Assembly (NCBI RefSeq): GCF_900155945.1
Contig: NZ_FTMN01000002.1
Span: 434,001 to 498,000, forward strand
Direction of reading: 5' to 3'
Source of the DNA: Marinobacterium stanieri
GTDB lineage: Bacteria; Pseudomonadota; Gammaproteobacteria; Pseudomonadales; Balneatricaceae
Length of the DNA: 64,000 nucleotides
Position 1 is the first letter of the stretch, and each line of letters begins with the position of its first letter. Shown here one piece after another: positions 4,105 to 37,427 of the stretch. Position numbers and translations under genes: made by a program. The notes below the pieces were generated by a model that saw only the letters and a program-made list of their open reading frames with translations, was not told the DNA's origin and ran no database searches.

Positions 4105-4141
4105 TTGTGAGAACTTGTGGCGATTTGTAACAGCTTGTAAC
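4105..4141 (-). promoter_or_regulatory. Four 10-bp-phased TTGT direct repeats upstream of the porin
   Basis: On the plus strand TTGT begins at 4105, 4115, 4125 and 4135, exactly ten bases apart. The first two continue as TTGTG and the last two as TTGTAAC. Direct repeats on one helical turn are the usual binding layout of OmpR/PhoB-family response regulators. The same arrangement and order occur before qhpA copy 2 (37390), next to an OmpR-family regulator gene. The array sits between the porin gene and the 3' end of the sigma-54 regulator gene. Confidence 0.65.
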
Positions 4142-4145
4142 GCCA

Positions 4146-6107
4146 TCACATCCCCAGCGCTTTCAGCCTCCGGTACAGGGTTGCGCGACTGATCCCCAGT
4201 GCCGTGGCTGCAGCCGTAACATTGCCGTCATGCTGTTCCAGAGCACGCCGGATCATCATTTCTTCGCTGGCCTGAAGGGTGCCGGCTGTCGAAGCGGGCC
4301 CCTGCTCCAGCTCATCCAGAAAATCATCGCTCAGATGGCTTTCATCCAGCACCCGTTCGTCCGGTTCCATAAAGGCCAAGGCCACTTTCAGGACCATCTC
4401 CAGCTGACGAACATTCCCGGGCCAACGATAAGCCTCCAGGCGGGTTAAAAGCCCTGCTTCAATTTCAATGTCGGGACGCTCCAGCTGCTGCAGCAATCGT
4501 GCACATAGCGTGTCAAAACTGCTTCGCTCACGCAGTGCCGGCAGTTTGACGCCCACGCCATTGAGTCGGTAATAGAGGTCCTCACGGAACTCGCCCTCGG
4601 CGACCATCTGCTTGAGATCACGATGAGTTGCACCAATCAGGGCAATATCCAGAGCCACCTCTTCGCCGCCCCCCAGTGGCGCTACCTTGCGCTCCTGCAA
4701 TACACGCAGCAAACGTGCCTGCAGTGATAACGGCATGTCACCGATCTCATCCAGGAACAGCACACCACCGTTCGCCTGCTGGAAACGCCCCTGCATGCCA
4801 CCCTTGCGTGAACCGGTAAAAGCGCCTTCGCGATAACCAAAGAGTTCGGACTCAATAAGCCCTTCCGGAATGGCGGCACAGTTTACCGCGACAAATGGTT
4901 GGCCGCTCCGGTTACCCGCCTGATGCAATGCCCTGGCAGCTACCTCCTTGCCGCTGCCGGTTTCACCGTTCAATAGCACGGGGACATCATTGTCCAAGGC
5001 CTTCACCGCCATTTTCATGGCACGGGTCAAACGCGGTTCACCCTCGGCAAAATCCAGTACAGCCTGGTCCCGTGTCGGTTTGACTCTGGGCTCGATATCA
5101 CGGCTGACCGGCGTCAACGCAGCCAGCCGATTCGGGAACTGCAGAAGCTCACAGAAGAGTTCGCCCGCACGTGTCTGAACTGATGCGATCCGTTGCCGCA
5201 TGCAGTTATTCATCAACACGCCCATTTTCTCACCCACCAGCTCTTCCAGCTGACGCCCGACCAGTTGATCTCGCCCACGGCCCAGCAACTGGCAACCCTG
5301 TTCGTTTATTGCCAGCAGAGCGCCGCATTCATCCAGCGCCACCAGGCCTTGCCAGGCGGAGCGCAGATACTGATGTCGTGTGTGAAATGCCAGCACAATG
5401 CGATGCTGATACTGACTGGTAAACAGGCGGGATTCGATATTGCGTGCAGCCAGCTGGATAACGCCCAGACTGTCTTTGGGCTGATCATTACGGCCTACCC
5501 GTGTCAGGTCGAGCACACCGGTCACCTGACCATCGGCATCGATAATGGGGGCAGAGGTGCAGGAAAAATGCGCTACCGTATCGAGAAAATGCTCTTCTTC
5601 GTTAATCAATACCGGTCGGCGCTCGATCAGAGCGGTACCGACAGCATTGGTGCCACGGTTGGCTTCACTCCAGGACACACCCTGACGCAACGCCAGCTGG
5701 CGTGACGGTGTAACAATCTGGTCACTGCCTTCCAACGCCAGGATACGGGCGTCCGCATTGGCCAGTATGATCAGGCCCTGGTCACCAAATTGGTGCGTCA
5801 GCTGCTCAATTTCGGGCAGCGCAGAATGCAGCAACGGCTGATGCTGTTCCTTGAAAGCCAACAGATCACTGACTTCGTCAATCTGTTCGGGGTCAGTGGA
5901 AGCGTTATCGAGCCCGGCTTCCAGACTACGACGCCAGGAGGCTTCGATTTCATCACGCAGGAAGCCGCGTGGTAACTGTCCATCGGTGTGCAAGCGCTCA
6001 CGAGCAACACGCGCAGAGAGCACAGGGTCGCTTATAAGATCCTGGCGTAAACGAGGAGCCATACATCCGGCCTCTTTATTGTTATTGTCCGGGTTGACAT
6101 GAATCAT
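4146..6107 (-). CDS. AcoR-type sigma-54-dependent transcriptional activator (GAF-AAA-Fis)
   Basis: About 653 residues when started at the ATG at 6107, which has a GGGAGAG ribosome site. The frame is open to 6266 but that extension does not look conserved, and an ATG at 6065 is also possible. Domains in order: an N-terminal GAF sensor region (ANRGTNAVGTAL, SAPIIDADGQVTGVLDLT), a PAS-like stretch, a sigma-54 AAA+ domain with Walker A GETGSGKE, the sigma-54 contact loop as GAFTGS rather than GAFTGA, Walker B LFLDEIGDM, the R-finger region, and a C-terminal Fis helix-turn-helix (VTAAATALGISRATLYRR). AcoR-like proteins activate catabolic operons in response to small ligands. It is the natural candidate to act on the two -24/-12 promoters and four palindromes at 11567-11884. 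Confidence 0.88.
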   Translation of the reverse strand: MIHVNPDNNNKEAGCMAPRLRQDLISDPVLSARVARERLHTDGQLPRGFLRDEIEASWRRSLEAGLDNASTDPEQIDEVSDLLAFKEQHQPLLHSALPEIEQLTHQFGDQGLIILANADARILALEGSDQIVTPSRQLALRQGVSWSEANRGTNAVGTALIERRPVLINEEEHFLDTVAHFSCTSAPIIDADGQVTGVLDLTRVGRNDQPKDSLGVIQLAARNIESRLFTSQYQHRIVLAFHTRHQYLRSAWQGLVALDECGALLAINEQGCQLLGRGRDQLVGRQLEELVGEKMGVLMNNCMRQRIASVQTRAGELFCELLQFPNRLAALTPVSRDIEPRVKPTRDQAVLDFAEGEPRLTRAMKMAVKALDNDVPVLLNGETGSGKEVAARALHQAGNRSGQPFVAVNCAAIPEGLIESELFGYREGAFTGSRKGGMQGRFQQANGGVLFLDEIGDMPLSLQARLLRVLQERKVAPLGGGEEVALDIALIGATHRDLKQMVAEGEFREDLYYRLNGVGVKLPALRERSSFDTLCARLLQQLERPDIEIEAGLLTRLEAYRWPGNVRQLEMVLKVALAFMEPDERVLDESHLSDDFLDELEQGPASTAGTLQASEEMMIRRALEQHDGNVTAAATALGISRATLYRRLKALGM

Positions 6108-6269
6108 AGGTGCTCTCCCTTGTATACGACAATGCCCGCTCAGGTGCAAATAGAGGGAAGACAGCAAAATTTGCGCCAGTGGTTGCCAACACAGGTGTGC
6201 GCCAGAGCTGAACCACCGGCAAACACTGGAGTCGAACAACATTATGAACCTTATCAGTGAGGACACGTC

Positions 6270-6791
6270 ATGCGTATCGCCGGCCTGATAGCCATTTCTC
6301 TCATTCTGGGCGGCTGTGCCTCCCTGCCCGATGACCTGACCTCACCTGAAGGCCAGGCCCTGTTGCCCTTTGCTGATTCCAGGACGGTAGCGGCATCCCA
6401 GCAAAAAGCACGCTGGGGCGGTGAAATTGTCGCGGTGCGTAACCTGGCTCAGGGCAGTCAGGTGGAAGTGGTGCAGTTTGTCCTCAGCAGCAACGGCTAC
6501 CCGGTTAAAAGTGACAACAGTGGCGGGCGTTTTCGGATCGAGACCTCGGCTTTTATAGATCCGGCGATTTACAAGGCAGGGCGGAAAGTCACCGCATTGG
6601 GGCAATTTGACCGTATCGAATCAGGCAAAATCGATGAACAGCCCTACAATTTTCCGATTCTTAAAACGGAATCGGTGCACCTTTGGCCGGAAGTAAAAGA
6701 GCCCCCTGCTGCCTGTGATTGCGACCCGTTCTGGGGCAACAGCCTGATGCATCGTCCGATTATTGTGGTGCCGGCCAAGCAGCCGAGATAA
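6270..6791 (+). CDS. Slp-family outer-membrane lipoprotein
   Basis: 173 residues with a lipoprotein signal peptide ending in LGGC (lipobox, cysteine about 16). The mature part carries the Slp pattern: GGEIVAVRNLAQGSQVEVVQF, then GGRFRIE, FIDPAIYKAGRKVTALGQ and a C-terminal YNFPIL...HLWPE block. E. coli Slp is a starvation-inducible outer-membrane lipoprotein of unclear function. The ATG at 6270 follows AGGA at a good distance. It is transcribed divergently from the sigma-54 activator and converges on the qhp copy 1 operon. No functional link to amine oxidation is evident. Confidence 0.75.
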   Translation: MRIAGLIAISLILGGCASLPDDLTSPEGQALLPFADSRTVAASQQKARWGGEIVAVRNLAQGSQVEVVQFVLSSNGYPVKSDNSGGRFRIETSAFIDPAIYKAGRKVTALGQFDRIESGKIDEQPYNFPILKTESVHLWPEVKEPPAACDCDPFWGNSLMHRPIIVVPAKQPR

Positions 6792-6823
6792 GTCGTTTGC
6801 TTCGCTGAGGGCTGAGGGCCGAG

Positions 6824-6854
6824 AAAAAAAGAGCCCGGACGCGAGGGTCCGGGC
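6824..6854 (-). terminator. Terminator of qhp operon copy 1
   Basis: Stem GCCCGGAC (6833-6840) / GTCCGGGC (6847-6854), loop of six. Seven A residues at 6824-6830 give the T-run on the minus strand. It closes the copy 1 operon right after qhpB and shows that no maturation genes follow there. Confidence 0.85.
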
Positions 6855-6909
6855 AAGCCTGTCGGTTCATGAGTGCAGACAGGGAGAGATTACAGGCGTG
6901 CTGGCAGGG

Positions 6910-8034
6910 TTAGCGCATAAACACCTGAGATGTTGAGATCGCCATGTCACCGCCCGGCAGCTGGATATTGCCCAGTTTTTCCATGCTGTCGGCATCATAG
7001 ATGGCCACATCGTTGAAGGTACCACCCAGGTAAACCTTGCTGCCGTCATGGTTCATGGCAATACAGTAGTAGGAGTGGTCCAGTTCTGCAGCGCCCACCA
7101 ATTCTTTCTTCTCAATGTCATACTTTGCCAGACGGTTCAGTACCCCGAACACCAGGTTCGGATCCTTGGGTGAACGCATACCGGAGAAGTAGATCTCGGT
7201 AATCGGACCGAAATCGGTGGTTTCGGTTTCACCGGTTTCCAGATTCACGTTCATGAAGCCGTAGATCCAGTCCGCCGTATTCAGATCGTAGCTTTCATCC
7301 TGAAATTTGGCGGTGGTGTACAGAATGGTGAAGTCCTTTGAGGGAGACTGGATCGGCCAGGCATTCAGCACATCAGGCGGGGCATACAGCGGGCGGTCCC
7401 AGTTGCGGCTGGGAATCGCCACATCCACCTCACCGGTGTTCACATCCACCTTGTAGATATCGGCACCGGCCATATACAAAGTGCCGTCATCCCCGGTCTG
7501 CATCACCGTAACCTGGCGTGGCGACGGGAAGGTACGAACCGGCTTGGCATCCAGCCCTGCACTGGTGTCATAGACCGCCAGACGCGCCGGCTGCACGCGG
7601 TAGTGGTCGCGGTACAGCATGGTCGGATTCTGCACCGCATAGATCTCGTCACCATCGGCACTGATGGCAAAGGAGAAGATCGATTTGGTACGTTCATTCT
7701 GCTGCAGTGACATGGAAGCATGGAAGGTCACTTCGCAGTTATCCAGGTTCACACCGTAGATATCCTCGTAGTGGTTGTTGAGGATATAGGCGGTTTTGCC
7801 ATCCGGTGCCATCTGCGTCACGCCGGGGCCAAATGCATCCGGCAGTTCGCAACTTTTGTAGAGAGTATCGGTTTGCAGGTCGATCACGTGCATGCTGTTG
7901 GGGTAGTTTGCCACCAGCATGTACTCATTGCCCTCTACCAGCGCCGGCCCCTGAGCCAGCACACTGGTGGAAATTGCCGAACCCAGCACCAGCGCGGCCG
8001 TCGGCATCAATGCGGTCAGTCGTTTCTTATCCAT
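6910..8034 (-). CDS. qhpB: Quinohemoprotein amine dehydrogenase beta subunit, copy 1
   Basis: 374 residues with an N-terminal signal peptide (MDKKRLTALMPTAALVLGSA..., cleavage probably after VLAQ or nearby). The chain has repeating blade motifs of a seven-bladed propeller, such as MHVIDLQTDTLY, GKTAYILNNHYEDIYGV, KVYLGGTFNDVAIYDADSMEKLGNIQLPGGD. In QHNDH the beta subunit is a periplasmic beta-propeller that clamps the small quinone-bearing gamma subunit against the di-heme alpha subunit. It is about half identical by eye to copy 2 (32720-33838), including the closing MEKLGNIQL/LDKIGSIQL segment. Last gene of the copy 1 operon, 18 bases after qhpC. Confidence 0.93.
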   Translation of the reverse strand: MDKKRLTALMPTAALVLGSAISTSVLAQGPALVEGNEYMLVANYPNSMHVIDLQTDTLYKSCELPDAFGPGVTQMAPDGKTAYILNNHYEDIYGVNLDNCEVTFHASMSLQQNERTKSIFSFAISADGDEIYAVQNPTMLYRDHYRVQPARLAVYDTSAGLDAKPVRTFPSPRQVTVMQTGDDGTLYMAGADIYKVDVNTGEVDVAIPSRNWDRPLYAPPDVLNAWPIQSPSKDFTILYTTAKFQDESYDLNTADWIYGFMNVNLETGETETTDFGPITEIYFSGMRSPKDPNLVFGVLNRLAKYDIEKKELVGAAELDHSYYCIAMNHDGSKVYLGGTFNDVAIYDADSMEKLGNIQLPGGDMAISTSQVFMR

Positions 8035-8052
8035 TATCAGATCACCTTCGGC

Positions 8053-8379
8053 TTAGTTCTTGTCTTTCGGGAACACGGTACCCAGGTTGCGCCAGTCCTC
8101 TTTCGAGTTCATCGCATCCTTGTTCCAGTCCGGATAGGTGTTCATCATGTCCGGCACCTGTGCCGGCCACCAGCAAGGGTCTGCACAGCCGTAAAGGTCA
8201 GCTTCCATCGGCTGGCACAGCGAGGTTACGCCGCCAAAGGCATCAATTTCCCAGCCCGGGTCGGTGGTGGCAGTACAGCCGGCCAGTGAGCTCATGGCCA
8301 CGACCTCTTCCACACTGTCGTCGGCCACGGCCTGGCTCAGCAACTGAGCCTTGTTATTGATCGCTTTGAGATGTTTCAT
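8053..8379 (-). CDS. qhpC: Quinohemoprotein amine dehydrogenase gamma subunit (CTQ precursor), copy 1
   Basis: 108 residues, started at the ATG at 8379 and not at an upstream in-frame ATG inside qhpD. The first 28 residues ([16 protein letters not shown]...EEVVA) match the length and position of the leader removed during maturation. In mature numbering (28-residue leader), all known crosslinking residues are present: Cys7/Glu16, Cys27/Asp33 and Cys41/Asp49 for the thioether bonds, and Cys37/Trp43 (GCADPCWW) for the cysteine tryptophylquinone. The subunit supplies the catalytic quinone that attacks the amine. It begins one base after the stop of qhpD, which makes its crosslinks. Confidence 0.95.
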
Positions 8380-8380
8380 G

Positions 8381-9811
8381 TCAGTGCGCCCTCCGAGGCG
8401 AGATAAACTGGTCGATGAAGGCGGGATTGACCGCCATGATGCGGCTGTAGACTTCAATACCGAAGTCGACCCAGTCACGCATCAGGTCGCAGTAGTGGTA
8501 GGTCGGATGGGTCGGATCGCCGTAACGGGCGTAGCTCTCGTGATAACAGCCACCAGAACAGAGGTTACGGATACGGCAGCTGGCACAACCGGTGTCGGTA
8601 CGATCCAGACGTTTGGACAGGAAGTCACCCAGCTCAACCTGCTGCACACCGCTCTTCACATTGCCAAAGGTCGGCATATCCGAGCCGGTGAATCGGTGAC
8701 ACAGGTTCAATTCGCCCTCATGATCCACCGCCAGCATTTTCAGGCCGGCACCACAGGGCAATGCCTTCTTGTGGCCTTCATGCAGGTCGGTAATCAGCTG
8801 ATGCATATTGGAGAAGCCGATATTACGGTGCTCCAGAGCCGCATCGAGGTAGCGCTGACCCAGACGTTTCATGCCGGCGAAGACTTCAACCAGCTCCTCG
8901 GATGTGAGGTTGTAGCTGCTGATATCACCCGAGGTGACCGGTGCAAAGCCCACTTCCGAGAAGCCCATATCATTGAACAGGTGGTCCCAGATCCGCTCCA
9001 CTTCGGTGGTGCCATGAGTGAGCGTGACACGGGCCCCTACCGGGCGAGAGTCATAGCGTTCCAGCAGGCGTCGCGCCTTGCGACGCACCACGTCATAGGT
9101 GCCCTGGCCGCCCACGGTGATACGGTTCTTGTCATGGATCGCCTTGGGGCCATCCATGCTGACCGACAGGCCAAAGCGGTGCTTGTTGAGCCAGTCGATA
9201 ATCTCGTCCGTCAGCAGGGTGGCATTGGTCGTCATCACATACTCGACCTGCTTGCCCAGACTGGCAAAACGCTTGTCACAGTAGTCCACCATGGCTTCTA
9301 TCAACGGGCGGTTACTGAGTGGTTCGCCACCGAAGAACACCACCGTGTAGCGGTCTTCATCGGGCGATTCACGCAGTAACATTTCCACCGAATCCACGGC
9401 TGTCTGCAGCTCCATCTTGCGCCCGGCCGAAGGAATATCCAGGTCTTCCTTGTAGCAGTATGTACAGCTGAGGTTGCAGCCGGTATTAACGTTCAGCACC
9501 ACCGTGGTCAGCGGGAACTGATCCACCTGTCGCGTACCGATATCATCGGTCAGCGGTCGGCCGTCATTGACCAGCTCCAGTGCCAGCAGCTCACGAACCG
9601 TTTCCGTGATCTCCTGTTCCGAGAAACGGTTGCTCAAGCCGGTTATCAGTGATTCGGCCGTTTCTGCGCCACTGCGCAGGCGGTCCAGTACACCTGAGGT
9701 CAGGTTATCCAGCGCAAACAACGAGCTGGATGGAATATGGAACAGCATTCGGGTGTCCCCGACTTGCACCTCGTGCAGGTTATGTTCCACCAGATTGAGT
9801 ACAGCACCCAT
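8381..9811 (-). CDS. qhpD: Radical SAM peptide-modifying enzyme for QHNDH gamma subunit, copy 1
   Basis: 476 residues. The radical SAM cluster motif CxxxCxxC is at residues 112-119 ([13 protein letters not shown]). Two further groups of cysteines near the C-terminus ([27 protein letters not shown]...YHYC) form a SPASM-type domain for auxiliary iron-sulfur clusters, and an N-terminal region of about 95 residues resembles a peptide-recognition domain. In characterised systems QhpD installs the three Cys-to-Asp/Glu thioether bonds in the gamma polypeptide in the cytoplasm before export. It sits between qhpA and its substrate gene qhpC. Copy 2 is closely similar and has the same motif numbering. 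Confidence 0.95.
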
Positions 9812-9882
9812 ATCCGGTCTCCCCTTTCAGAATTCATGTCGAGTACCCTCGGGGTACCCCCTGAGTTTTCAGTACCCGTTCA

Positions 9883-11478
9883 TCACGGAATCGGGGGATT
9901 GTTCCAGCGCTGTACCGTCACGATCATCTGACCTTCGGCATTATGGGTCTCGCCGCCATCCTGGACCTGCGCCTGTACCTTCAGGTTACCGGCGTTGTTG
10001 GTCATCATGCGGCGCTCGGGATTAGGGCCTGCGGCCGCCGGCGTAAAGACACCCGTGCTGCTGTTCATACGACCGGTGAAGTGCACATCCCGATCGGCTT
10101 CAGCCACCGCATCAAAGGGTGCGACCGACCAGGTCGCGGGCATCATGCCAATGCGGTAGTCATCGGCGGTACCGGCCTTGCCATCGGCACCAACAGCCCA
10201 GGCCTCAGCTTCAAAACGCGCTTCAACACGGGGAGTTGAGCTGCCATTGCCGCCGACTCGCGCAACCGCAAACTCGGGCACCACTTTCACGTTGGCAACG
10301 CGATCATAAACGGCGAAACGACCACCTTCAGCAGTCCCTACGCTGGCAGTGACCACACCGCTGGCATCTTCGGCGGCACGGGCTCGCACGCGGATGAGGT
10401 CAGGGCTTTCGCTGATCACTTCAATCACATCCACACCGGCACCCAGTACCGGCATGCCACTGAGCCCAGTACCGACAATGCTGATCTCGGCTTCGGTTCC
10501 GGCTTTAATATATGCCGGCTGCAGCGCCAGAATGCGGCTTGCACCCTTGGCATCTCGAGCGGCGACCACATCGGCACCCACTTCGTCCTTATCGCGCAGG
10601 AACATGCGGCCACTGAGCTGACCATCCTTGAGCGCGAACACCTGACGCATTACCTGGCCATCGATCTCGATATTGGCGCGCCACTCGTAGCCGGTATAAA
10701 CGACCGCTTGCCCCTCACCCTTGAGTGCACTGCCATCGTCGTATTCACCGGTTAATGTCAGACGGTACTGGTCATCACCCTGAGCAGGCGTTACCTGCAT
10801 GCGCGCATGGAAAGCGCCCTTCCCGGGCATATGTCCAGCCAGTGTCCAGTCGCCATCGACCGGCGCTTCTGCCTGCTGCTGCCATTCATTCCAGGCCTTT
10901 GAATCCATCGGCAGCATCTCGGCCAGCTCGGGCACCATTTCATTCAGTGCCAGATCCAGCCAGTCGCGGTCACGGGCCAGTGCCTGGAATTCAGTGGTGG
11001 GCCATTGGCCAAGGTGGAAATGAACCAGGTGTTCCCATTCGGACGCCGGGCGGCGCTGCAACATTACGCGCGCACCGGAGTGACAACGTGCACACATTTC
11101 AGTGAAGGCCTGGGAATCAAAGGCTTCGGAGGTATTCAGCCGACGCTCAAGTGCATAACGTACGCCTTCGGTTTCCGACGGTGCCAGACCCTGGCGGTCC
11201 GACAGATATTTCACCAGCGTGCGCCGATCTTCATCGCTGATCTGCAGGCCATGCATCACCTGCATACGCGCGATGGTCATCAGCCAGCCTTCCGGTGACT
11301 TGCGTTGATGGCTGATACGGCTCCACTGGTTATCACCTTCCTGTGTATGGCATGCCAGGCAGTTGTTCTGAATGATCTGCTCGGCTTCAGGTGCGGCCTG
11401 GGCCGTCTGGGTTGCCAGTGCGACGGCCAGTGCCAGTAAGCCGCCTCCCAGAGGTTTTAGAGTTTTTGTTGTGTTCAA
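9883..11478 (-). CDS. qhpA: Quinohemoprotein amine dehydrogenase alpha subunit (di-heme), copy 1
   Basis: 531 residues if started at the TTG at 11478. The strong GGAGGT ribosome site lies between the in-frame ATG at 11502 and this TTG, six bases before it, so TTG is the likelier start. The signal peptide ends TAQA before APEAEQ. Two heme c sites are visible, CLACH at 40-44 and CARCH at 129-133, followed by all-beta domains typical of the alpha subunit. The hemes carry electrons from the CTQ quinone to an external acceptor in the periplasm. First gene of the copy 1 operon. A near-consensus sigma-54 promoter is about 90 bases upstream. Confidence 0.94.
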   Translation of the reverse strand: MNTTKTLKPLGGGLLALAVALATQTAQAAPEAEQIIQNNCLACHTQEGDNQWSRISHQRKSPEGWLMTIARMQVMHGLQISDEDRRTLVKYLSDRQGLAPSETEGVRYALERRLNTSEAFDSQAFTEMCARCHSGARVMLQRRPASEWEHLVHFHLGQWPTTEFQALARDRDWLDLALNEMVPELAEMLPMDSKAWNEWQQQAEAPVDGDWTLAGHMPGKGAFHARMQVTPAQGDDQYRLTLTGEYDDGSALKGEGQAVVYTGYEWRANIEIDGQVMRQVFALKDGQLSGRMFLRDKDEVGADVVAARDAKGASRILALQPAYIKAGTEAEISIVGTGLSGMPVLGAGVDVIEVISESPDLIRVRARAAEDASGVVTASVGTAEGGRFAVYDRVANVKVVPEFAVARVGGNGSSTPRVEARFEAEAWAVGADGKAGTADDYRIGMMPATWSVAPFDAVAEADRDVHFTGRMNSSTGVFTPAAAGPNPERRMMTNNAGNLKVQAQVQDGGETHNAEGQMIVTVQRWNNPPIP

Positions 11479-11566
11479 GGTCCGACCTCCTTCAGTGGTC
11501 ATGGACGGGTATCTCAGAGGAGATGCCCGTTGAGATCCGGGTCATGTTGAGTCACATGAGAAGGAA

Positions 11567-11581
11567 GCACAGCCTGTGCCA
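11567..11581 (-). promoter_or_regulatory. Sigma-54 promoter of qhp operon copy 1
   Basis: On the minus strand TGGCAC-AGGCT-GTGC, matching the -24/-12 consensus TGGCAC-N5-TTGC with one change. The GG and GC doublets are ten bases apart as required. Transcription would start near 11555, leaving a leader of about 75 bases before qhpA. Confidence 0.75.
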
Positions 11582-11659
11582 GATTAACCTTATGTTTATA
11601 AAACAGTCACTTGGCGTTCATATTACGACTTTAGACCCCTATTTCACCGAGGCTGGAAC

Positions 11660-11792
11660 CGTCTTATATCGAGACAACTGTATCAGCCTGAGACACCGCA
11701 TTGAGACAACACGGCTACCGGAGCCTGCAGGCCGTTTTAATGAGCGTCTCAGGTTGCAGCATTGCACTGCTCCGGCGTCTCAATCTGCGACG
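11660..11792. promoter_or_regulatory. Cluster of four 17-bp palindromic activator sites between divergent sigma-54 promoters
   Basis: Four imperfect dyads fit YGTCTCA-N3-TGAGACR: 11660-11676 (CGTCTTA/CGAGACA), 11679-11695 (TGTATCA/TGAGACA), 11745-11761 (CGTCTCA/TGCAGCA, weak right half) and 11776-11792 (CGTCTCA/TGCGACG). They lie about 80-215 bases from both sigma-54 promoters, the normal range for enhancer sites of bacterial enhancer-binding proteins. The AcoR-type activator at 4146 is the only such protein in the window. This 450-base gap (11479-11928) contains no gene I can support. Confidence 0.65.
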
Positions 11793-11869
11793 CAGGCGTG
11801 TTTTGCATCTAGTCGAAAAAAACAAAAATACTTTATATTTATCAATGACTTAAAGATAAAAACCCAAAC

Positions 11870-13419: not shown

Positions 13420-13425
13420 CAGACG

Positions 13426-28864: not shown

Positions 28865-28867
28865 TAC

Positions 28868-30196
28868 TCAGGCGGACAACCAGCCCTGCTGACGCATCCA
28901 GTTAGCCAACAGAGGACCCTTATCGTTGCCGATGTGATCAGCTAGAACCTCGGCGGCGGCACGCTCAGGTTCTGCCCGTACCGCATCGAGCAAGGGTGCC
29001 AGCGGCAGTCCGTTCAAGTGCCAGATACCCAGTGGCTGGTCCGGTGTGATCACCACATGAGCTTCCGTAATCAGGCCGTTTTCGACCACAGGACGCATAC
29101 CGGTTGTGACCACCTCCGGTGTAACCTCGATATGCAAGGGTTCAGCATCCGGCCACTGGCGCCGCGCTTGCCAGAAAGGCCGATCCGGCCACTGACTCTC
29201 CTGGGCGTAAAAGTCACGCCCGATGCGGGCAAAGCGGTAAAACAGCCCCTCGATACGCGCCTCATGGAACGCCTTGGCCAACTCTGCGCGTTCAGGGTTC
29301 TGGATTAGTGTATTGACCACTGCCGGTGCCTGCAGAGCCGATGACAACGCCTGGAAAATTCCATTCCCCGATAACGGGTCTACCGCCATGGCGGCATCCC
29401 CCACGCGGATCCAGTTATCGCCGGCGCTGCGCTCACAGAGCACCGGGCTGCTGGTGCGCGCATAAATCGACCCGACAGGCTTAGCTCCCGCCATAAAAGG
29501 CGCTGACTGCTCCAGCCGCTCCAGCCGTGCACGACACCAGTCGTCCAGCTCGCGCTTGGGTGGCAAGTTGGCGCTGGCCACATCCAGGGTAAGCTGCAGA
29601 TAACGGCGGCCATCTGCACGCATGGCCATCCAGGCCCAGCCATCCTCGAAACTTTCCACGGCTGTTTTTGGTTCGGCCTCTTCACCTTGCCAATATTGCA
29701 GCAGAGACACGGTCTGCGTGCCTTTTACCCGAGACACACCCGCCGCCGGTGCGGCACGGCCGCGGGCCTCAACCAGAAACGGCGCTCGGAGCTGCAGCTC
29801 TCCACCGTCGGTCAACGCCACATCGGCCGTAAAAGCGCCTTCATGTTCCTGGCAGTTGTGTACTCGGCCCTGAACTACATCAACACCCTGCTCGGCCAGA
29901 TCCTGCAGCAGGCCACGATCAAACGGCTGACGCGGAATCAAACGCTCGGTGTTGGCTGCACTGGTCTCACCATTCCAGGTCACCTGGCGTGGTGACGGCG
30001 CGGCCAATGCCTGCAACGCATGCTTGAAACCGGCCGCCTGCATGCCTTGAACGGCACGGTCAGAACTACCCTCCACCGCATCGAAGGGGCGCGGCTCGCT
30101 GACAACCGACACCGAATACCCCAGACGACGCAGGCCAAGGGCGACCGCACCACCGGCCGGGCCTCCGCCCAGAATCAAAATATCCGTATCAGCCAT
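28868..30196 (-). CDS. qhpG: FAD-dependent monooxygenase for tryptophylquinone formation
   Basis: 442 residues, started at MADTDILILGGGPAGG (30196) behind a GAGGAG site, overlapping the end of qhpE by eight bases; an in-frame ATG at 30241 is less likely. The dinucleotide-binding GGGPAGG motif opens the protein. GDAAMAVDPLSGNGIFQAL is the FAD ribityl/pyrophosphate-binding GD motif of group A flavin monooxygenases. In known systems QhpG hydroxylates the target tryptophan of the crosslinked gamma subunit, the first step of CTQ formation. Only one copy exists here, so it presumably serves both gamma subunits. Confidence 0.92.
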   Translation of the reverse strand: MADTDILILGGGPAGGAVALGLRRLGYSVSVVSEPRPFDAVEGSSDRAVQGMQAAGFKHALQALAAPSPRQVTWNGETSAANTERLIPRQPFDRGLLQDLAEQGVDVVQGRVHNCQEHEGAFTADVALTDGGELQLRAPFLVEARGRAAPAAGVSRVKGTQTVSLLQYWQGEEAEPKTAVESFEDGWAWMAMRADGRRYLQLTLDVASANLPPKRELDDWCRARLERLEQSAPFMAGAKPVGSIYARTSSPVLCERSAGDNWIRVGDAAMAVDPLSGNGIFQALSSALQAPAVVNTLIQNPERAELAKAFHEARIEGLFYRFARIGRDFYAQESQWPDRPFWQARRQWPDAEPLHIEVTPEVVTTGMRPVVENGLITEAHVVITPDQPLGIWHLNGLPLAPLLDAVRAEPERAAAEVLADHIGNDKGPLLANWMRQQGWLSA

Positions 30197-30875
30197 GAGC
30201 CGCTCCTCGTCGTTCCGGTCCTTGATACTGTGATTGCTCAATCAGCCACTGACGCGCCGCGCTAAGGCTTGGGCTCGAGGCCTGCTGCAAATAGCGCAGA
30301 AGGTGTGCACTCAGATGAGCACAGCCCAGGCTCGCCCCCGACAGCCCGCGGGTATTATCCAGCGGCAGCACACAGGCACCAAAGTCGGCGAACTCGGTTT
30401 CAAGATAGGAGATCTCTTCACGCTGGCAACGAGCATCACCGGTCATGCGGAATACACCCGGATAGTGCGCCGGATAAACCGGCTCCCCCCGTGCCGGGCT
30501 GGAAGCACAGATCAACACACCGGCTTTCAGCGCCTGCTCGCAGGCCTCACGCAGGGCCGGACGGTCCTGACGCAAGCCCAGGCTCAGATTGATCACCTGC
30601 ACACCCTGCTCCACCAGCCAGTCGATGGCAGCGGCCACCTGAACAGCGGTCGTGGTTAAACGCGCCTGAAAAACCTGTGCCGAAAACACTTCCGCCTCGG
30701 GGGCCAGAGCCTGAATCACCTCGATCGTGCGGGTGCCATGACCCAGCTGATCCGGCTCCGCCTCAGCCAGCCACAACTGCCCCTCATCCAGTACAAAGGC
30801 CGCACTTTCAACCAGCTGTTGTTGTACGGAGCAGCCCGAATCAACCACCCCGACTTTCAGTGGGCTAGTGGACAT
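30189..30875 (-). CDS. qhpE: Subtilisin-like protease that removes the gamma-subunit leader
   Basis: 228 residues, started at MSTSPLKVGVVDSG (30875), preceded by AGGAGG six bases away. The catalytic triad of the S8 family is visible: Asp12 (VVDSG), His46 (LGHGT) and Ser182 (SGASLG). It has no signal peptide, so it acts in the cytoplasm. Known QhpE cleaves the 28-residue leader of QhpC after crosslinking. The gene overlaps qhpF and qhpG at its two ends, showing tight coupling. Compact size and lack of a prodomain fit the QhpE type. Confidence 0.92.
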   Translation of the reverse strand: MSTSPLKVGVVDSGCSVQQQLVESAAFVLDEGQLWLAEAEPDQLGHGTRTIEVIQALAPEAEVFSAQVFQARLTTTAVQVAAAIDWLVEQGVQVINLSLGLRQDRPALREACEQALKAGVLICASSPARGEPVYPAHYPGVFRMTGDARCQREEISYLETEFADFGACVLPLDNTRGLSGASLGCAHLSAHLLRYLQQASSPSLSAARQWLIEQSQYQGPERRGAAHG

Positions 30876-32592
30876 CGGCCACCTCCTCAATCAGGCTCAG
30901 ATGCGCATTTTGCAGCAGCAAGCGACGGTCGGCGCCGGCAAGCGTTGAGGGTCGATGACTGATCAGAATGCGGGTGCGGCCGGCAAAGAGACGATCCACC
31001 GCTGCGATCACCTGCTGCTCCGTCGCCTCATCAACGGCGGAGGTAGCCTCATCCAGCACCAGCACCGCCGGCTGCTGCAGCAGTGCACGGGCAATAGCGA
31101 TACGCTGTTTCTGACCACCGGACAGCTGCTGACCGCGCTCACCCAGCGGCGTATCCAGACCTTGAGGCAGACGCTGAATCAAATCGTCCAGCTGGGCTTC
31201 CCGTGCCGCCTCACGCACCTCAGCATCACTGGCATTGGGGCAGGCATAGCGCAGGTTGTCAGCCAGGGAGCCACGGAACAGCGTAATATCCTGGGACACC
31301 ACGGCGACACAGCGGCGCAGTTCCGCCAGGCTGAGTTCACGTATATCAACGCCATCCAGCAGGACTTGCCCTTCCTGGGGATCGTAATGCCGCTGCAGCA
31401 GGTCAATCAGCGTTGATTTACCCGCACCTGAAGCACCGGCCAGCGCGATCTTCAAGCCGGCTGGCAGTTCAGCGCTGACATTATCCAGCACCGGACCACG
31501 CCCATCATAAGCAAAGCTGACGTTTTCAATGCGCATCTCGCCACGCACGGGCTGAGGCAGGGATTTGGGCTCGGCTGGTGTTTCGATCTCAACCTCGGCC
31601 AGGCGCAACTCGTTAACACGATCCAGGCTGACGCTCATGCGCTGAATGGCAACATACAAGCCCAACAGACTGTTGACCGGCCCTGTGGCCATGCCCAAAT
31701 ACGTCGAGAAGGCAATCAGCGAGCCCAGCTGCCACTCGCCCTGAATCACCCACCAGCCACCGATCAGAAAGGCAGCGGCACGGGTCATGGACGTCAGCGT
31801 ACCGGGAATGGCATGGGTAAAGAATTCGGTCACCTGCAGCTGCAGGAGTTTATCAAGATAGCTGTCATTCAGCCCGCCGAGGCGGGTACGTTCGCGCCCT
31901 TCTTGACCAGTCGACTGAATGAATTTAACCGCTGGCAGGGTTTCGACCAGAAAGCTGGACAGATCCGCCGAGCGTTCGCGCATCTCACGGGTACGCACTT
32001 CAACCTTGCGTCGCATCCAACGCAGCCAGACGATTTCCAGTGGAATGAGCACCAGCACCAGCAGCGACAACTGCCATGAAAGTGCCACCAACAACACCAG
32101 CGCACCGGCAAGACCGATAATACTGCTGACCGCAGAAAACAGGCTGTCGACGGCAAAACGTTGAATCGCGGCCACGTCGCCATCAATTCGTGACAGCAGG
32201 TCACCAATACGACGCTGGCCAAAGAACGACGGTGAAAGGCGCTGCAGATGCGCATAGAGATCGGTGCGCAGCGCAAACAGAATCCGCCCCGACAGGCGCG
32301 TGTGCAGATAGCGGTTCACCCCGGAGAGTGCAGTGCTGAGAATACCCACGAAGATCATGGCGATCGCCAGCTGCACCAGCACACCATAGTCCTTTGCGAT
32401 CAAGCCATCATCAATCAGCATCTTGGTCAGCCAGGGCTGCAACAGCACGAAGGCGGAGCCGATGAACGATAAGCCCAGCAACCCGGCAATGGCACGGCGC
32501 TGCGGCTTGATGAAGCTGTACAACCAGCGAAACCCCTGCTCCAATCGGCTGCGATCGGGCGCATGGATGGCGCGTACCAGCCAGTTCAGCAT
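30865..32592 (-). CDS. qhpF: ABC-type peptide exporter for QHNDH gamma subunit maturation
   Basis: 575-residue half-transporter with a six-helix membrane domain (AGLLGLSFIGSAFVLLQPWL, RIGDLLSRIDGDVAAIQRF, ...) and an ATPase domain with Walker A ALAGASGAGKSTLIDLL, Q-loop VSQDITLFRG, signature LSGGQKQRIAIARALL, Walker B VLVLDEATSAVD and H-loop ISHRPSTL. In QHNDH systems QhpF is required for production of the active periplasmic enzyme and is thought to export the modified gamma polypeptide, which lacks a signal peptide. It is separated from qhpB by a terminator-like hairpin, so it may be expressed below the structural genes. Confidence 0.92.
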   Translation of the reverse strand: MLNWLVRAIHAPDRSRLEQGFRWLYSFIKPQRRAIAGLLGLSFIGSAFVLLQPWLTKMLIDDGLIAKDYGVLVQLAIAMIFVGILSTALSGVNRYLHTRLSGRILFALRTDLYAHLQRLSPSFFGQRRIGDLLSRIDGDVAAIQRFAVDSLFSAVSSIIGLAGALVLLVALSWQLSLLVLVLIPLEIVWLRWMRRKVEVRTREMRERSADLSSFLVETLPAVKFIQSTGQEGRERTRLGGLNDSYLDKLLQLQVTEFFTHAIPGTLTSMTRAAAFLIGGWWVIQGEWQLGSLIAFSTYLGMATGPVNSLLGLYVAIQRMSVSLDRVNELRLAEVEIETPAEPKSLPQPVRGEMRIENVSFAYDGRGPVLDNVSAELPAGLKIALAGASGAGKSTLIDLLQRHYDPQEGQVLLDGVDIRELSLAELRRCVAVVSQDITLFRGSLADNLRYACPNASDAEVREAAREAQLDDLIQRLPQGLDTPLGERGQQLSGGQKQRIAIARALLQQPAVLVLDEATSAVDEATEQQVIAAVDRLFAGRTRILISHRPSTLAGADRRLLLQNAHLSLIEEVADVH

Positions 32593-32653
32593 CTATCTAT
32601 CCTTATGTATTTCCTGGCAATATCGAGCGGCCTCTGAGCAGCTCCTGCCCAAT

Positions 32654-32687
32654 AAAAACGGGAGGTCCGTTGCCGGCACCTCCCGTT
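32654..32687 (-). terminator. Terminator/attenuator between qhpB copy 2 and qhpF
   Basis: Stem AACGGGAGGT (32657-32666) / ACCTCCCGTT (32678-32687). A-rich bases at 32651-32658 give TTTTTATT on the minus strand. A second inverted repeat, TACCTGA/TCAGGTA, lies around 32692-32719 next to the qhpB stop. The pair should lower transcription from the abundant structural subunits into the maturation genes. Confidence 0.75.
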
Positions 32688-32719
32688 GACTATACCTGAT
32701 TTGCCGAGCGCGTCAGGTA

Positions 32720-33838
32720 TCAGTCCTTGATGGTTGCCACACGCAGGTCAGACGTGGACATGTCACCGGTCAGCTGAATGGAGCCGATCTTGTCCAGCGT
32801 TTCACTGTCATGGACTGAGATATCGCTGCTGGTACCGCCTACGTAGATGGTTTTGCCATCACCCGAGATGTTCAGGTCGTAGTAGGTGTGACCCAGTTCA
32901 TGTACCGCCAGCGTTTCGTTCTTGCTGATATCGTGCTTGGACAGCGTGTTGAAGCTGCCGTACAGGATATTGGAGTCACGCGGGTCGGTAATGAAGTTGA
33001 AGATGATGAATTCGAACGGAATGGTTTCCACACGCTCGGCTTCACCGGTCTCCAGATCCACACGGCTCATGCCCCACCACCATTCGGCGGTTTCGAAGTT
33101 CCACTCTTCAGAGTCAAACTTGGCGGTCACGTACGGCATGATGTACTCGTTGGCCTGCTCACCCTGAGAATGCATGGCGAAAGCATCAGGCGGCAACCAC
33201 AGCGGGCCTTTCTCCCAGTTGGCCAGCTTGCTGACCATGCGGATATCACCGGTTTCCGGGTTGATTGCCTTGAGATCAGCACCACCCAGGATTACTTCAT
33301 TCTGGGCCGTGGTGGCGATCTTGGTGATACGACGATCCACCGGGAAGGTGCGTACAACCTTGGCGTTCATACCATCTTCAATGTTGAATACGGCCAGGCG
33401 CGGCTGCATCACTTCAAAGCGGTCACGGTGCTTCTTGACCGGGTTCTGCACGGTGTACAGTTCGGTACCGTCGGCGCTGACGGTGATCGACTGCATGGAG
33501 ATCACCTGCAGAGTCGGGGAAGACTGCTCGGCCTTGAAGGTCATGTCACAGTTACGAATATCGAAACCGTAAATGTCCTTGGTACCGTTACTCAGCACAT
33601 AGGCGTGGGTATTGTCCGGGGACATGGCGATAGAGCCAGTACCGAACGGGCCAGGGATATCACAGGTACGCGCGATCTCGTTGGTGCTCATGTCGATCAC
33701 GTGCAGCTGATTGGGACGGGTCACCGTCAGCAGGTATTCCTGGTCCGCCATGGCATAGGGTGCCACCGCTGACAGGGCTGCGCCCATCACCAGGGAGCCA
33801 GCCAGGCCGGCTGATTTGAACGTGTTAGTCAGTTTCAT
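32720..33838 (-). CDS. qhpB: Quinohemoprotein amine dehydrogenase beta subunit, copy 2
   Basis: 372 residues, started at MKLTNTFKSAGL (33838) behind AGGAG; the longer open frame to 34108 runs within qhpC. The signal peptide ends at AMA before DQEYLLTVTRPNQLHVIDMSTN. Blade repeats of the beta-propeller are evident (HAYVLSNGTKDIYGFDIRNCD, KTIYVGGTSSDISVHDSETLDKIGSIQLTGD). Compared with copy 1 the blade order is the same but surface loops differ, which fits a different amine preference or acceptor. It follows qhpC by 13 bases. Confidence 0.93.
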   Translation of the reverse strand: MKLTNTFKSAGLAGSLVMGAALSAVAPYAMADQEYLLTVTRPNQLHVIDMSTNEIARTCDIPGPFGTGSIAMSPDNTHAYVLSNGTKDIYGFDIRNCDMTFKAEQSSPTLQVISMQSITVSADGTELYTVQNPVKKHRDRFEVMQPRLAVFNIEDGMNAKVVRTFPVDRRITKIATTAQNEVILGGADLKAINPETGDIRMVSKLANWEKGPLWLPPDAFAMHSQGEQANEYIMPYVTAKFDSEEWNFETAEWWWGMSRVDLETGEAERVETIPFEFIIFNFITDPRDSNILYGSFNTLSKHDISKNETLAVHELGHTYYDLNISGDGKTIYVGGTSSDISVHDSETLDKIGSIQLTGDMSTSDLRVATIKD

Positions 33839-33851
33839 CTGCCAGCTCCTG

Positions 33852-34175
33852 TTACTGCTCATCCTCGAAGATACCATCCAGCTTGCGCCAGTCCTTGTCG
33901 GCTTTCGCCACATCCTTACCCCAGTCCGGGTAAGTGTGCATGGTGTCCGGGACCTGTGCCGGCCACCAGCAGGCGTCGGCACAACCGTACAGGTCAGATT
34001 CCATCGGCTGACACAGTGAGCCCAGACCACCAAAGGGGTCCAGCTCCCAGCCCGGGTCAGTGGTGGCCGTACAGCCCACAACGGTCTGCATGGCAACAAC
34101 GTCTTCAACTTCTTCCGGGCTGACCGCCTTGTTGATCAGCTGCGCTTTCTTGTTCAGAGACTTGAGATGTTTCAT
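33852..34175 (-). CDS. qhpC: Quinohemoprotein amine dehydrogenase gamma subunit (CTQ precursor), copy 2
   Basis: 107 residues. The 28-residue leader ([16 protein letters not shown]...VEDVVA) precedes [16 protein letters not shown]. Counting from residue 29, the crosslink pairs Cys7/Glu16, Cys27/Asp33 and Cys41/Asp49 and the quinone pair Cys37/Trp43 (GCADACWW) all fall at the positions known from crystal structures of this enzyme. The ATG overlaps the qhpD stop (ATGA). It is about 70% identical by eye to copy 1, diverging most in the leader middle and the C-terminal tail. Confidence 0.95.
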
Positions 34176-35605
34176 TTAGCACTCCTCCTCGGAGAGACAT
34201 GTGCTTCGAAGAACCCGGGGTTCTCGAGCATGATCCGCGAATACACTTCCACACCAAAGTCGACCCAGTCTCGCATCAGGTCACAGTAGTGGTAGGAAGG
34301 ATGCGTCGGATCTCCATATTTGGCGTAACTTTCGTGGTAACAACCACCCGAACAGAGGTTTCGAATACGGCAGGTTTCACAACCGGTGTTGCTGCGGTCC
34401 AGGCGTTTCTCGACGAACTGACCCAGGCTGGCCTTGTCGATACCGTTTTCCACATCACCGAAGGTCTGCATGTCAGAGCCGGTAAAGCGGTGACACAGGT
34501 TCAGGTCACCATCCTTGTCGACAGCCAGCAGACCGATGCCGGCACCACAGGGCACCAGTTTCTTGTTGCCTTCATACATGTCAGTAATCAACTGATGCAT
34601 GTTGCCGTAGCCGAAGTTTTCATTGCGCAGTGCGGCTTCAAGGTAACGTTTGCCCAGGCGTTTCATGCCGGCGAACACCTCGACCAGCTCTTCACCGGTC
34701 AGGTTGAATTCGGCTATATCGCCCGAGGTCACGGGGCCAAAGCCCACTTCGAAGAAGCCCAGCTCGCCGCTGAGGTGATCGTAGATTTTCTCCACATCGG
34801 TGATGCCACGTGTCAGCGTGACACGGCAGCCCACCGGGCGCGCGTTGTAACGGGCCAGCAGCATTTCCACCTTGCGGCGGACCACATCGTAGGTACCCTG
34901 ACCACCAACGGTAATCCGGTTCTTGTCGTGCATCGCCTTGGGGCCATCCATGGAGATGGTCAGGCCGAAGCGATGCTCGTTGAACCAGTCCACCAGCTCT
35001 TCGTTAAGCAGGGTGGCGTTGGTTGTCATGGTAAAGTCGACAGTGGCATCCAGCTTGGAAAAGCGCTCCTCGCAATAGGCCACGACATCTCGGATCAGTG
35101 ACATATTGGACAGCGGCTCACCACCGAAGAAGACCACGTTGTACGCGGGCTGGTTCGGCGATTCCCTCAGCAACATTTCGACCGACTTGATCGCCGTCTC
35201 ATAGGCCATTTTCTCGCCCTTGGACGGCGTCGTCAGGTCTTCCTTGTAGCAGTAGGTGCAGCTGAGATTGCAGCCGGTGTTAACGTTCAGCACCACAGTG
35301 GTCAGCGGAAACTGTTCCACTTTCTGCGGATCCGGGTTGATGCGGGCAACCGCACCGGGCTCGGAAATCACTTCCAGTGAGCGCAGCTCCTCAATCACTT
35401 CGGAGACCGCTTCCTGCGAATAGCGCGCATGCAGTTCAGCCAACTGCTGGTGTGATACCTGCTCATGGCGATCGAACAGCTGCAACAGTTCGCGCCCGAG
35501 ATCATCGAGTTCGAAAATGCTGCTGCTGGGGATGTGAAACAGCATCTGGCGGGCATCAACATCAACCCTGTGCAGATTCGGTTTCACCAGTGTCATGGCG
35601 CCCAT
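34172..35605 (-). CDS. qhpD: Radical SAM peptide-modifying enzyme for QHNDH gamma subunit, copy 2
   Basis: 477 residues. CxxxCxxC at 112-119 ([13 protein letters not shown]), SPASM-type cysteines at the C-terminus ([24 protein letters not shown]...YHYC), and the FFGGEPLSN motif for SAM binding. It should form the three thioether crosslinks in the adjacent gamma precursor. It is translationally coupled to qhpC through a four-base overlap. Keeping a separate qhpD for each qhpC, while sharing later maturation enzymes, suggests each QhpD is tuned to its own leader. Confidence 0.95.
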
Positions 35606-35663
35606 GATTCACCTCTTTGTTGTTCTGTTGGGTGGCTACTTTTTGTTGTCGGGTGTCAGAGGC

Positions 35664-37265
35664 TTAGTCCAGTACGCGGCGTACGAAGTCCTGCACCGCT
35701 ACCAGCATGCTGCCTTCGCCTTCAACGGTGGTATCACCGTCTTTAACACTTGCTACCACTGCCAGACGACCAACGTTGTTGGCACTCATCTTACGGGCCG
35801 GGTTCGGACCGGCATCACCCGGTGTAAAGATGCCTGCGGCATTGATCATGCCGGCATATTTGTCATCTTTATCATGGGCAGCCACTTCGTCGGCCGGCTT
35901 GATGCTCCACTGTGCCGGCATGTAGCCCAGACGCAGGTCGTCATCCGTACCCGCTTCGCCATCAGCACCCGCGCTGTAGCCCACGGCACGATAATTGGCA
36001 CGTACCTTGGCCATGGCGCTGTCAGCACCACCGTTACGGGTTACCGCGTTGGCCGGCTGTACTTCAACACGGGCCAGTTCGCTGTATACGGCCAGCTCGG
36101 CATTAGCCTTGCCAACGGATACGGAACGCATGCCTTCTGCACCGTTCGCCTTGGCGATCACGGTAATACGGTCCTTGCTGCGAGAAACCACTTTCTCGAC
36201 TGCAACACCCTCGCCCAGATTGATCTCGCCATCCAGGTTCTGGCCAACCAGCGTCAGCTCGGTGCTGACACCGGAGCGCAGGTAAGACGGCTGAACCGCA
36301 ACGATGTCCGCAGCACCCTGATCACGCACGGCCATCAGGTCACCACCGATTTCACGCTCAGCAGCCAGGAACATGCGGCCTTCCAGGTTGTTGCCGGCCT
36401 TGTCTGCCGCCATCACCTGGCGCATTTTCACGCCGTCAATGGTCAGGCTGGCACGCCATTCGAAGCCGGTATAGACGGTTGCATTACCCTTGCCGGCCAG
36501 CTTGCTGCCATCGGCGTAGGTGCCTTCGATATCCAGGTCATACTTGCCTTCGCCGGTCTTGGCAGCCGACATCCAGGCATCAAACTCGCCCTTGCCCGGA
36601 ATAAAGCCGGTTACACGCCAGCGGCCCATGAGGTCGCTCTTGTCAGCGGCTTTCCAGTTGCTCCAGGCATTGGTTTCAAACGGGAACTGTTCGGCCAGCT
36701 TAACAGCGGTGTCGTTGCGTGCGATATCGAACCACTGACGGTCACGTGCCAGGGAGTGGAATTCAGTAGTCGGGAACTGCCCCATGTGGAAATCAACCAG
36801 GTATTTCCACTCCTGCTCGGTACGGCGCTGCAGGCTGAAACGGGCACCGGAGTGACAGCGTGCGCACATTTCTGCAGTACCCGGCTCAATACCGGTTTCC
36901 ACGATATTGGTATCCTGCTCCAGCAGGTAGCGGTAGCCTTCGGTCTCTTCCGGCGCCAGGCCCTGAGTATCCGCCAGGTATTTAACCAGCGCACGCTTCT
37001 CCTCGGTGGAGATCTGCAGGTTGCGCAGGTGAATCATGCGGTTCAGCGTCATGTGCCAGCCTTCCGGCGTTTTACGCTGTTCACTGATACGGGAGAAGCT
37101 GGGCGCCTCAGCCGTACCGCTTTCGGTATGACAGGCCAGGCAGCGGTCCCGGATGATCTGTTGTGCGTCCTGAGCCAGAAGCGGGGTACTGGCCAGACCG
37201 GCCAATGCCAACACGCCTGTGCTCAACAGCGCACGTTTGGAATTATTATTACTCAATGCCATCAC
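35664..37265 (-). CDS. qhpA: Quinohemoprotein amine dehydrogenase alpha subunit (di-heme), copy 2
   Basis: 533 residues. The signal peptide ends near LLAQ before DAQQIIRDR. Heme c sites are CLACH at 42-46 and a CARCHSGARF further on, followed by beta-rich domains (GRWRVTGFIPGKGEFDAWM...KYDLDIEGTYADGSKL). A long antisense open frame covers the same bases but is a shadow. First gene of the seven-gene copy 2 operon; a four-repeat phased array lies about 125 bases upstream, shared in form with the porin promoter. Confidence 0.94.
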   Translation of the reverse strand: MMALSNNNSKRALLSTGVLALAGLASTPLLAQDAQQIIRDRCLACHTESGTAEAPSFSRISEQRKTPEGWHMTLNRMIHLRNLQISTEEKRALVKYLADTQGLAPEETEGYRYLLEQDTNIVETGIEPGTAEMCARCHSGARFSLQRRTEQEWKYLVDFHMGQFPTTEFHSLARDRQWFDIARNDTAVKLAEQFPFETNAWSNWKAADKSDLMGRWRVTGFIPGKGEFDAWMSAAKTGEGKYDLDIEGTYADGSKLAGKGNATVYTGFEWRASLTIDGVKMRQVMAADKAGNNLEGRMFLAAEREIGGDLMAVRDQGAADIVAVQPSYLRSGVSTELTLVGQNLDGEINLGEGVAVEKVVSRSKDRITVIAKANGAEGMRSVSVGKANAELAVYSELARVEVQPANAVTRNGGADSAMAKVRANYRAVGYSAGADGEAGTDDDLRLGYMPAQWSIKPADEVAAHDKDDKYAGMINAAGIFTPGDAGPNPARKMSANNVGRLAVVASVKDGDTTVEGEGSMLVAVQDFVRRVLD

Positions 37266-37348
37266 TCCCTTACTGATGAGATGGATCTTCTTCTATTGTG
37301 CCCAAGCGGTGACGCGGCTCTGCAACGCACTACCCGCTTCAGTGGTCA

Positions 37349-37354
37349 TAGCTA
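37349..37354 (-). promoter_or_regulatory. Candidate -10 box of qhp operon copy 2
   Basis: TAGCTA on the minus strand (an overlapping TATGAC is an alternative). Its upstream edge is 36 bases from the first repeat at 37390, the same as for the porin promoter. No good -35 is visible. Confidence 0.3.
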
Positions 37355-37389
37355 AACTAAACACGCCATGTAAATGAATTATCTAGCTT

Positions 37390-37427
37390 TTGTGCTAAGT
37401 TGTGCCCAGATGTAACAGAATGTAAAA
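37390..37427 (-). promoter_or_regulatory. Four 10-bp-phased (T/A)TGT direct repeats upstream of qhpA copy 2
   Basis: TTGT at 37390 and 37400 and ATGT at 37410 and 37420, exactly ten bases apart. The first two continue as TTGTG and the last two as ATGTAA, the same order and orientation to the gene as at 4105-4141. The array lies in the gap between qhpA and the divergent OmpR-family regulator gene, which is its most likely binding protein. Confidence 0.65.

Follow-up and report, generated by a model that had tools for sequence, protein, structure and literature searches.

Two promoters in a 64,000-nucleotide stretch of the Marinobacterium stanieri genome (hereafter the window; positions 434,001 to 498,000 of contig NZ_FTMN01000002.1, assembly GCF_900155945.1) carry the same array of four half-sites on a ten-base period, one in front of an operon for an outer-membrane porin and an aldehyde dehydrogenase, the other in front of the second of two quinohemoprotein amine dehydrogenase gene sets (qhp2, led by the alpha-subunit gene qhpA2). 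Each array belongs to a promoter module that is conserved in related genomes, recurs in the same gene context, is exclusive to these two promoters in its own genome and co-occurs with a TorR-like OmpR-family response regulator, the gene of which lies beside the second array. It is very probable that both arrays are operators of a single dedicated two-component regulon, in which the phosphorylated regulator would activate promoters devoid of a −35 element.

The half-sites lie where an earlier, sequence-only reading of the window had placed them, at 4105-4141 and 37390-37427, on an exact ten-base period and in the same orientation relative to their respective minus-strand genes. Along the window, array 1 reads TTGTG, TTGTG, TTGTA and TTGTA (starts 4105, 4115, 4125 and 4135) and array 2 TTGTG, TTGTG, ATGTA and ATGTA (starts 37390, 37400, 37410 and 37420); in gene sense, the units of array 1 are TTACA, GTTACA, CACAA and CACAA. 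The earlier description of two TTGTG units followed by two (T/A)TGTAA units holds for both arrays, but TTGTG is not the general proximal unit, relatives keeping TGT (ACA in gene sense). No further run of four TGT at ten-base spacing occurs on either strand of the window, and a search of the 4.68-Mb genome for WTGT-N6-WTGT-N6-WTGTAA-N4-WTGTAA with up to two mismatches returned arrays 1 and 2 alone (reversed control, one match); a wider regulon, sought in the same genome with the full module at up to three mismatches, again comprised only these two sites. A count of four ACA at a fixed step shows the ten-base step to be specific, with 28 occurrences at step 10 and none at steps 8, 9, 11, 12 or 13 on both strands of the window and 20 relatives' stretches (458,286 bases), figures that are not an unbiased rate since nearly all stretches were picked for their array and overlapping runs were counted repeatedly.

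Downstream of each array, a −10 box had been proposed 36 bases away; such a hexamer is present at both promoters, and its TANNNT pattern is kept in 78 of 79 related promoters. The same reading overlooked a TTTACA element, also kept in 78 of the 79, which lies on the promoter side of the array, two helical turns (22 bases) from the nearest half-site, and is followed after 9 bases by the −10 hexamer. In gene sense, the aligned module thus consists of TTACA at 0, GTTACA at 9-14, ACA at 22 and 32, TTTACA at 51-56 and TANNNT at 66-71, of which the search pattern imposes the array columns and nothing downstream. The tally omits 8 of 87 arrays (four without an assigned gene, three before an ABC exporter and one before the second porin gene of genome G028), and removal of near-identical promoters for the column profile reduces the qhp2 group from 43 to 38 and the other from 36 to 30. 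Many spacer columns, such as 19-21 and 59-61, are close to random, with partial conservation at 25-31 in qhpA2 promoters and at 40-50 in both groups. Two porin promoters stand outside the tally: that of G027 (L072, ~1394-1480) has six ACA units at steps of 10, 10, 11, 10 and 9 that fill the usually empty slot up to a TTTACG, and that of G054 (L202, ~5056-5200) has eleven, at 12, 22, 32, 42, 63, 73, 83, 93, 103, 113 and 122, with GCA in the gap; the latter includes an unbroken run of 6 ACA, its longest, whereas 200 random sequences gave runs of no more than 4.

At a spacing of 16-18 bases from the −10 hexamer, no sequence in any of the 79 promoters matches TTGACA at more than three of six positions. 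TTTACA itself was rejected as an ordinary −35 because the conserved −10 follows it after 9 bases instead of 16-18, and at 16-18 the promoters share no hexamer; measured against a sigma-70 promoter, 78 of the 79 sequences have the −10 hexamer and all lack the −35. With a matrix trained on 51 promoters from other genera, the window sites score 78.5 and 57.8 and the next best site −32.8; the same matrix recovers the qhp2 promoters of G042, G045, G038 and G108 that are missed at one mismatch (58.8 to 64.7 bits). The distal pair on its own (TTACA-N4-GTTACA) has one extra match in the genome, on contig 5 (reversed control, one); this pair (L212, 1501-1515) lies ~45 bases upstream of the first ATG of an open frame that matches no Pfam family and from which an OprD-type porin gene diverges, is followed 10 bases on by TATACT, scores −68.6 with the full matrix and is a possible minimal site.

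Each of the eight genomes of the genus, this one among them, has exactly two matches when one mismatch is allowed (control, none), and the family contains at least one match in 50 of 116 genomes and 10 of 16 genera (89 listed matches, against one for the control). In other families of the order, 4 of 372 genomes have one match each and the reversed control is found in 6 of 372, which places the array at chance level outside the family. The sequence-only reading had suggested a genome-wide scan and held that occurrence at random rates across intergenic regions would speak against it; with two sites in the genome and these counts inside and outside the family, the array behaves otherwise. Among 87 distinct arrays in the family, 43 precede qhpA2 (one of them, L178 of G059, given to this gene by coordinates and not by automatic match), 35 a porin gene, 2 an aldehyde dehydrogenase gene and 3 a gene for a qhpF-like ABC exporter, the last at ~2400 in L199 (G106), ~1670 in L193 (G107) and ~1930 in L200 (G036). 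Gene context was mapped in 20 selected stretches, which come from nine other genera and represent 19 of the 116 family genomes; 18 of them contain qhpA2, and an array precedes the gene in 16 (up to two mismatches), in 14 of which it sits between qhpA2 and the divergent regulator, and in the remaining two (G045 and G042) the matrix detects a diverged module at the same place. An array is found before the porin gene in 11 mapped stretches, usually with aldehyde dehydrogenase as the next gene, and in two genomes of genus g9 it stands directly before aldehyde dehydrogenase.

As the earlier reading had recognized, the gene beside the second array, divergent from qhpA2, encodes an OmpR-family regulator, with receiver (99.7 bits) and Trans_reg_C winged-helix (87.9 bits) domains both above cut-off and with the phospho-acceptor aspartate and acidic pocket kept, by eye, in IVEDD and LLDISLPGKDG. 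It scores 272.3 bits with the NCBIfam TorR equivalog, below the cut-off of 275; among solved structures, the nearest to it in sequence are BaeR, RegX3, the receiver domains of TorR and ArcA, and MtrA, and its matches in named genomes are other response regulators, the best at 52% identity in Vibrio among at least 80 loci listed, from which close relatives are possibly missing. Orthologs (at least 359.9 bits, sister regulators reaching no more than 275.7) are present in 48 of 116 family genomes, the same 48 that have qhpA2, as defined by a TIGR03908 score group without a tree (584.7-649.8 bits, against 674.7-733.8 for qhpA1) and with omission of G107 (fragments) and G052 (19.6 bits). Of these 48 genomes, 47 also have the array, against 3 of the remaining 68 (Fisher p 1e-27, without correction for descent). 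With a threshold of E ≤ 1e-86, a search of 390 genomes of the order detects the regulator in 9, every one a member of the family, and a search of 369 genomes of the class detects it in this genome alone. A conserved ten-base direct repeat accompanies the regulator across relatives; in G054 and G056, the regulator is not beside qhp2 and the regulator-kinase pair adjoins a porin gene instead. These distributions agree with the earlier proposal that the regulator and its giant kinase control amine oxidation, porin and aldehyde dehydrogenase, from which we infer both binding and control. At five of six loci examined, TTACA-N5-TTACA also stands, on the opposite strand, ahead of the gene that encodes the sister regulator itself, which suggests that this regulator clade reads such repeats. 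The upstream regions of sister TorR-like genes (L196, L205, L207, L208 and L191) contain TTTACA repeats at 10-11-base steps, and in L205 the sister gene is followed by genes for a solute-binding protein and a CHASE5 hybrid kinase.

The giant kinase combines degenerate protein-kinase, AAA_16, GAF, PAS, HisKA, HATPase, receiver and Hpt domains, with Pkinase, AAA_16, GAF, HisKA and HATPase in the order of the protein kinase-AAA-GAF-histidine kinase family. In 16 aligned kinases, picked by hand from the stretches and including that of the window, the phospho-sites of histidine, receiver and Hpt are kept throughout, and the aspartate of the HRD motif is replaced by Q, K or R in all 16, so that the protein-kinase domain is probably not catalytic; judged by its sequence, the N-terminus (38240-39070 in the window) is a pseudokinase, conserved as such and joined to a hybrid histidine kinase. 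With a maximal 19-residue hydropathy of 1.49 and no strongly hydrophobic segment, a membrane span is unlikely. Plasmid-borne relatives share a similar architecture, the best six being cyanobacterial (33.5-36.7% identity over 87-94%).

The proposed sequence of events would begin with an amine or its aldehyde product as the signal, in response to which the kinase, probably cytoplasmic, would pass phosphate via its own histidine, receiver and Hpt to the regulator. Phosphorylated regulator would then bind in a head-to-tail row, with one ACA half-site per helical turn, probably occupying the GTTACA distal pair before the proximal ACA pair and, two turns on, TTTACA; the distal pair is the probable entry point because it has the longest unit, a pair that the search pattern itself favoured. 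OmpR F1-type sites and PhoB boxes are tandem head-to-tail half-sites, and PhoB boxes replace the −35 element; ten-base head-to-tail half-sites would fit an OmpR/PhoB-type regulator on one helix face. Lack of a −35 element, together with TTTACA 9 bases before the −10, makes class II, PhoB-like replacement the simplest reading, in which regulator bound just upstream of the −10 would substitute for the absent element and the qhp2 and porin-aldehyde dehydrogenase operons would be activated together.

The earlier reading did not know the site as described. That stands for the site, but its type is familiar: direct-repeat operators are well known in the OmpR/PhoB family, with TorR, ArcA and RpaB using comparable head-to-tail repeats in addition to OmpR and PhoB above. 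TorR, the model nearest to the regulator, has four decameric boxes at torCAD, and the C-terminal part of the kinase best matches TorS (426.8 bits, cut-off 676.5); however, the tor box, CTGTTCATAT (PMC9239176), differs from the GTTACAT-like unit found here, the input part of the kinase differs as well, and the scanned neighbours (qhp2 genes, a non-TorS kinase, a phosphonate-binding-type protein and a GGDEF-EAL protein) include no torCAD-type gene and no linked torCAD with TorS/TorT. ArcA sites comprise two to five direct repeats, with four consecutive ones and a two-turn (22 bp) spacing described, and repeats two turns apart fall within one protected region (PMC3798270), a precedent for the 22-base step to TTTACA; the ArcA spacing is mostly 11 bp and its box occurs in 158 of 176 bound regions (PMC3798270), whereas here the step is 10 and the genome has two sites. 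The RpaB HLR1 site, two (G/T)TTACA(T/A)(T/A) with 2 nt between (PMC9241938), is close to the distal pair and has the same ten-base step, but it has only two units and the RpaB model is more distant from the regulator (164.7 bits, cut-off 330).

Several observations weigh against a regulon of this kind or against parts of the module. Four of the 87 arrays lack an assigned target, one of them (G023) adjoining a sister TorR-like regulator gene; the three ABC-exporter arrays are without a matching TTTACA/−10 part (matrix −14.0 to −19.3); and the array is present without the regulator in G107 (fragmented assembly) and, with one mismatch each, in G023 and G074. Because the regulator, the kinase and qhp2 occur as a set and the co-occurrence is uncorrected for shared descent, the statistics by themselves cannot tell the regulator from its companions. 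Ahead of qhp2, the array lacks the fourth half-site and has an altered first one in G042, G045 and G038, and in G108 both distal units carry a single change each, from which it follows that four perfect half-sites are the norm and not a strict need, and conservation of the array columns is in part imposed by the search pattern. As for TTTACA, the step to it is 22 and not 20; it is replaced by TTGGCA in one porin promoter, which could point to a sigma contact instead, reads TTTACG in the G027 porin promoter and is not recognizable in that of G054.

The sign of regulator action is not given by sequence alone, and the related regulator ArcA tunes anaerobic repression through multi-repeat sites (PMC3798270). 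That the regulator binds the arrays and represses, or switches sign with phosphorylation, is nevertheless unlikely, as the promoters have no −35 match and a −35-replacing activator would require just such a fixed distance from TTTACA to the −10. It is more improbable still that another factor binds the arrays. The sigma-54 activator encoded at 4146-6266 adjoins array 1 and has close relatives adjoining the G070 porin array and the G106 ABC-exporter array, but among the 20 mapped stretches such a relative stands beside an array only in G070; TTGTGA in array 1 resembles a CRP half-site, yet the repeat is direct and not palindromic, and TGTGA is not kept in relatives; and while sister TorR-like regulators have TTACA repeats upstream and one adjoins the G023 array, 10 of 11 family genomes with a sister but without the qhp2 regulator have no array, G023 being the exception. 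That the two promoters resemble each other merely as duplicated DNA of common descent, with no function today, might be argued from the likeness of the module at both, but is scarcely credible, since neutral drift would not keep only the unimposed TTTACA and TANNNT columns nearly fixed, amid many near-random spacer columns, in two different operons (38 and 30 non-redundant promoters).

Activation by the dedicated regulator might also take a graded form, an extension that we regard as tentative: the soluble phosphorelay kinase would report intracellular amine or aldehyde, and the TorR-like regulator would polymerize along an elastic phased track, on which the number of half-sites sets promoter sensitivity. 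On such a track, four half-sites plus one two turns away would be the norm, with six ACA plus TTTAC in G027 and eleven ACA in G054 as longer versions; if true, the regulon would coordinate uptake, periplasmic oxidation and aldehyde removal.

In the titles and abstract openings found, no two-component control of quinohemoprotein amine dehydrogenase is described, longer hit lists and most subscription papers lying outside the search. The regulon, the repeat unit and the link to the second qhp type do not appear in the papers found, and the comparative footprint is unusually clean. The second type of quinohemoprotein amine dehydrogenase, apparently under separate control, thereby acquires a proposed regulator with its operator and targets, and the giant kinase gains a concrete output; in addition, dozens of natural promoters of fixed phase and varying repeat number form a test set for the roles of repeat number and a −35-less layout in OmpR-family activation.

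Table 1. Coordinates of the promoter elements, regulatory genes and target operons in the window.
Feature	Position	Strand	Basis or remark
Array 1, promoter of porin-aldehyde dehydrogenase operon	4105..4140	minus	4 half-sites, ten-base steps
TTTACA element, promoter 1	4084..4089	minus	proposed fifth half-site; TTTACA in 78/79 promoters
−10 hexamer TAGTCT, promoter 1	4069..4074	minus	TANNNT in 78/79 promoters
Outer-membrane porin, first gene of putatively regulated operon	2664..4001	minus	Pfam Alginate_exp 25.9 bits, cut-off 25.2
Aldehyde dehydrogenase, second gene of porin operon	1176..2591	minus	domain search; probable co-transcription
Array 2, promoter of qhp2 operon	37390..37425	minus	4 half-sites, ten-base steps
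TTTACA element, promoter 2	37369..37374	minus	alignment, 79-promoter tally
−10 hexamer TAGTTT, promoter 2	37354..37359	minus	alignment, 79-promoter tally
qhpA2, quinohemoprotein amine dehydrogenase alpha subunit	35664..37265	minus	615 bits, cut-off 274.35
Rest of qhp2 cluster	28868..35605	minus	domains; qhpE/F/G names and single transcript presumed from domain and order
qhpD2, radical SAM	34172-35605	minus	
Beta-subunit-like	32720-34108	minus	
ABC exporter (qhpF-like)	30865-32592	minus	
Subtilase (qhpE-like)	30189-30890	minus	
FAD enzyme (qhpG-like)	28868-30241	minus	
TorR-like OmpR-family response regulator, proposed array binder	37503..38240	plus	divergent from qhpA2; domains
Hybrid histidine kinase, 2110 aa	38240..44572	plus	starts at last base of regulator gene

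QhpR is an AraC family regulator. The qhp operon in which it was described includes qhpR and is under n-butylamine-inducible regulation (PMC7876137); amine-inducible control of a qhp operon would be shared with the system proposed here, in which, by contrast, the second qhp type is accompanied by a two-component system. The first qhp set of the window (4146-11502) lies beside the sigma-54 activator gene. As a target of the regulator, qhp1 was rejected: the matrix finds nothing before qhpA1, and the array is absent in all three genomes with qhpA1 but without qhpA2, so that the two qhp sets seem to be separately regulated. The qhpE-, qhpF- and qhpG-like maturation genes (28868-32592) were seen once in the window, in the qhp2 cluster, no whole-genome search for a second set having been made, and may serve both qhp enzymes.

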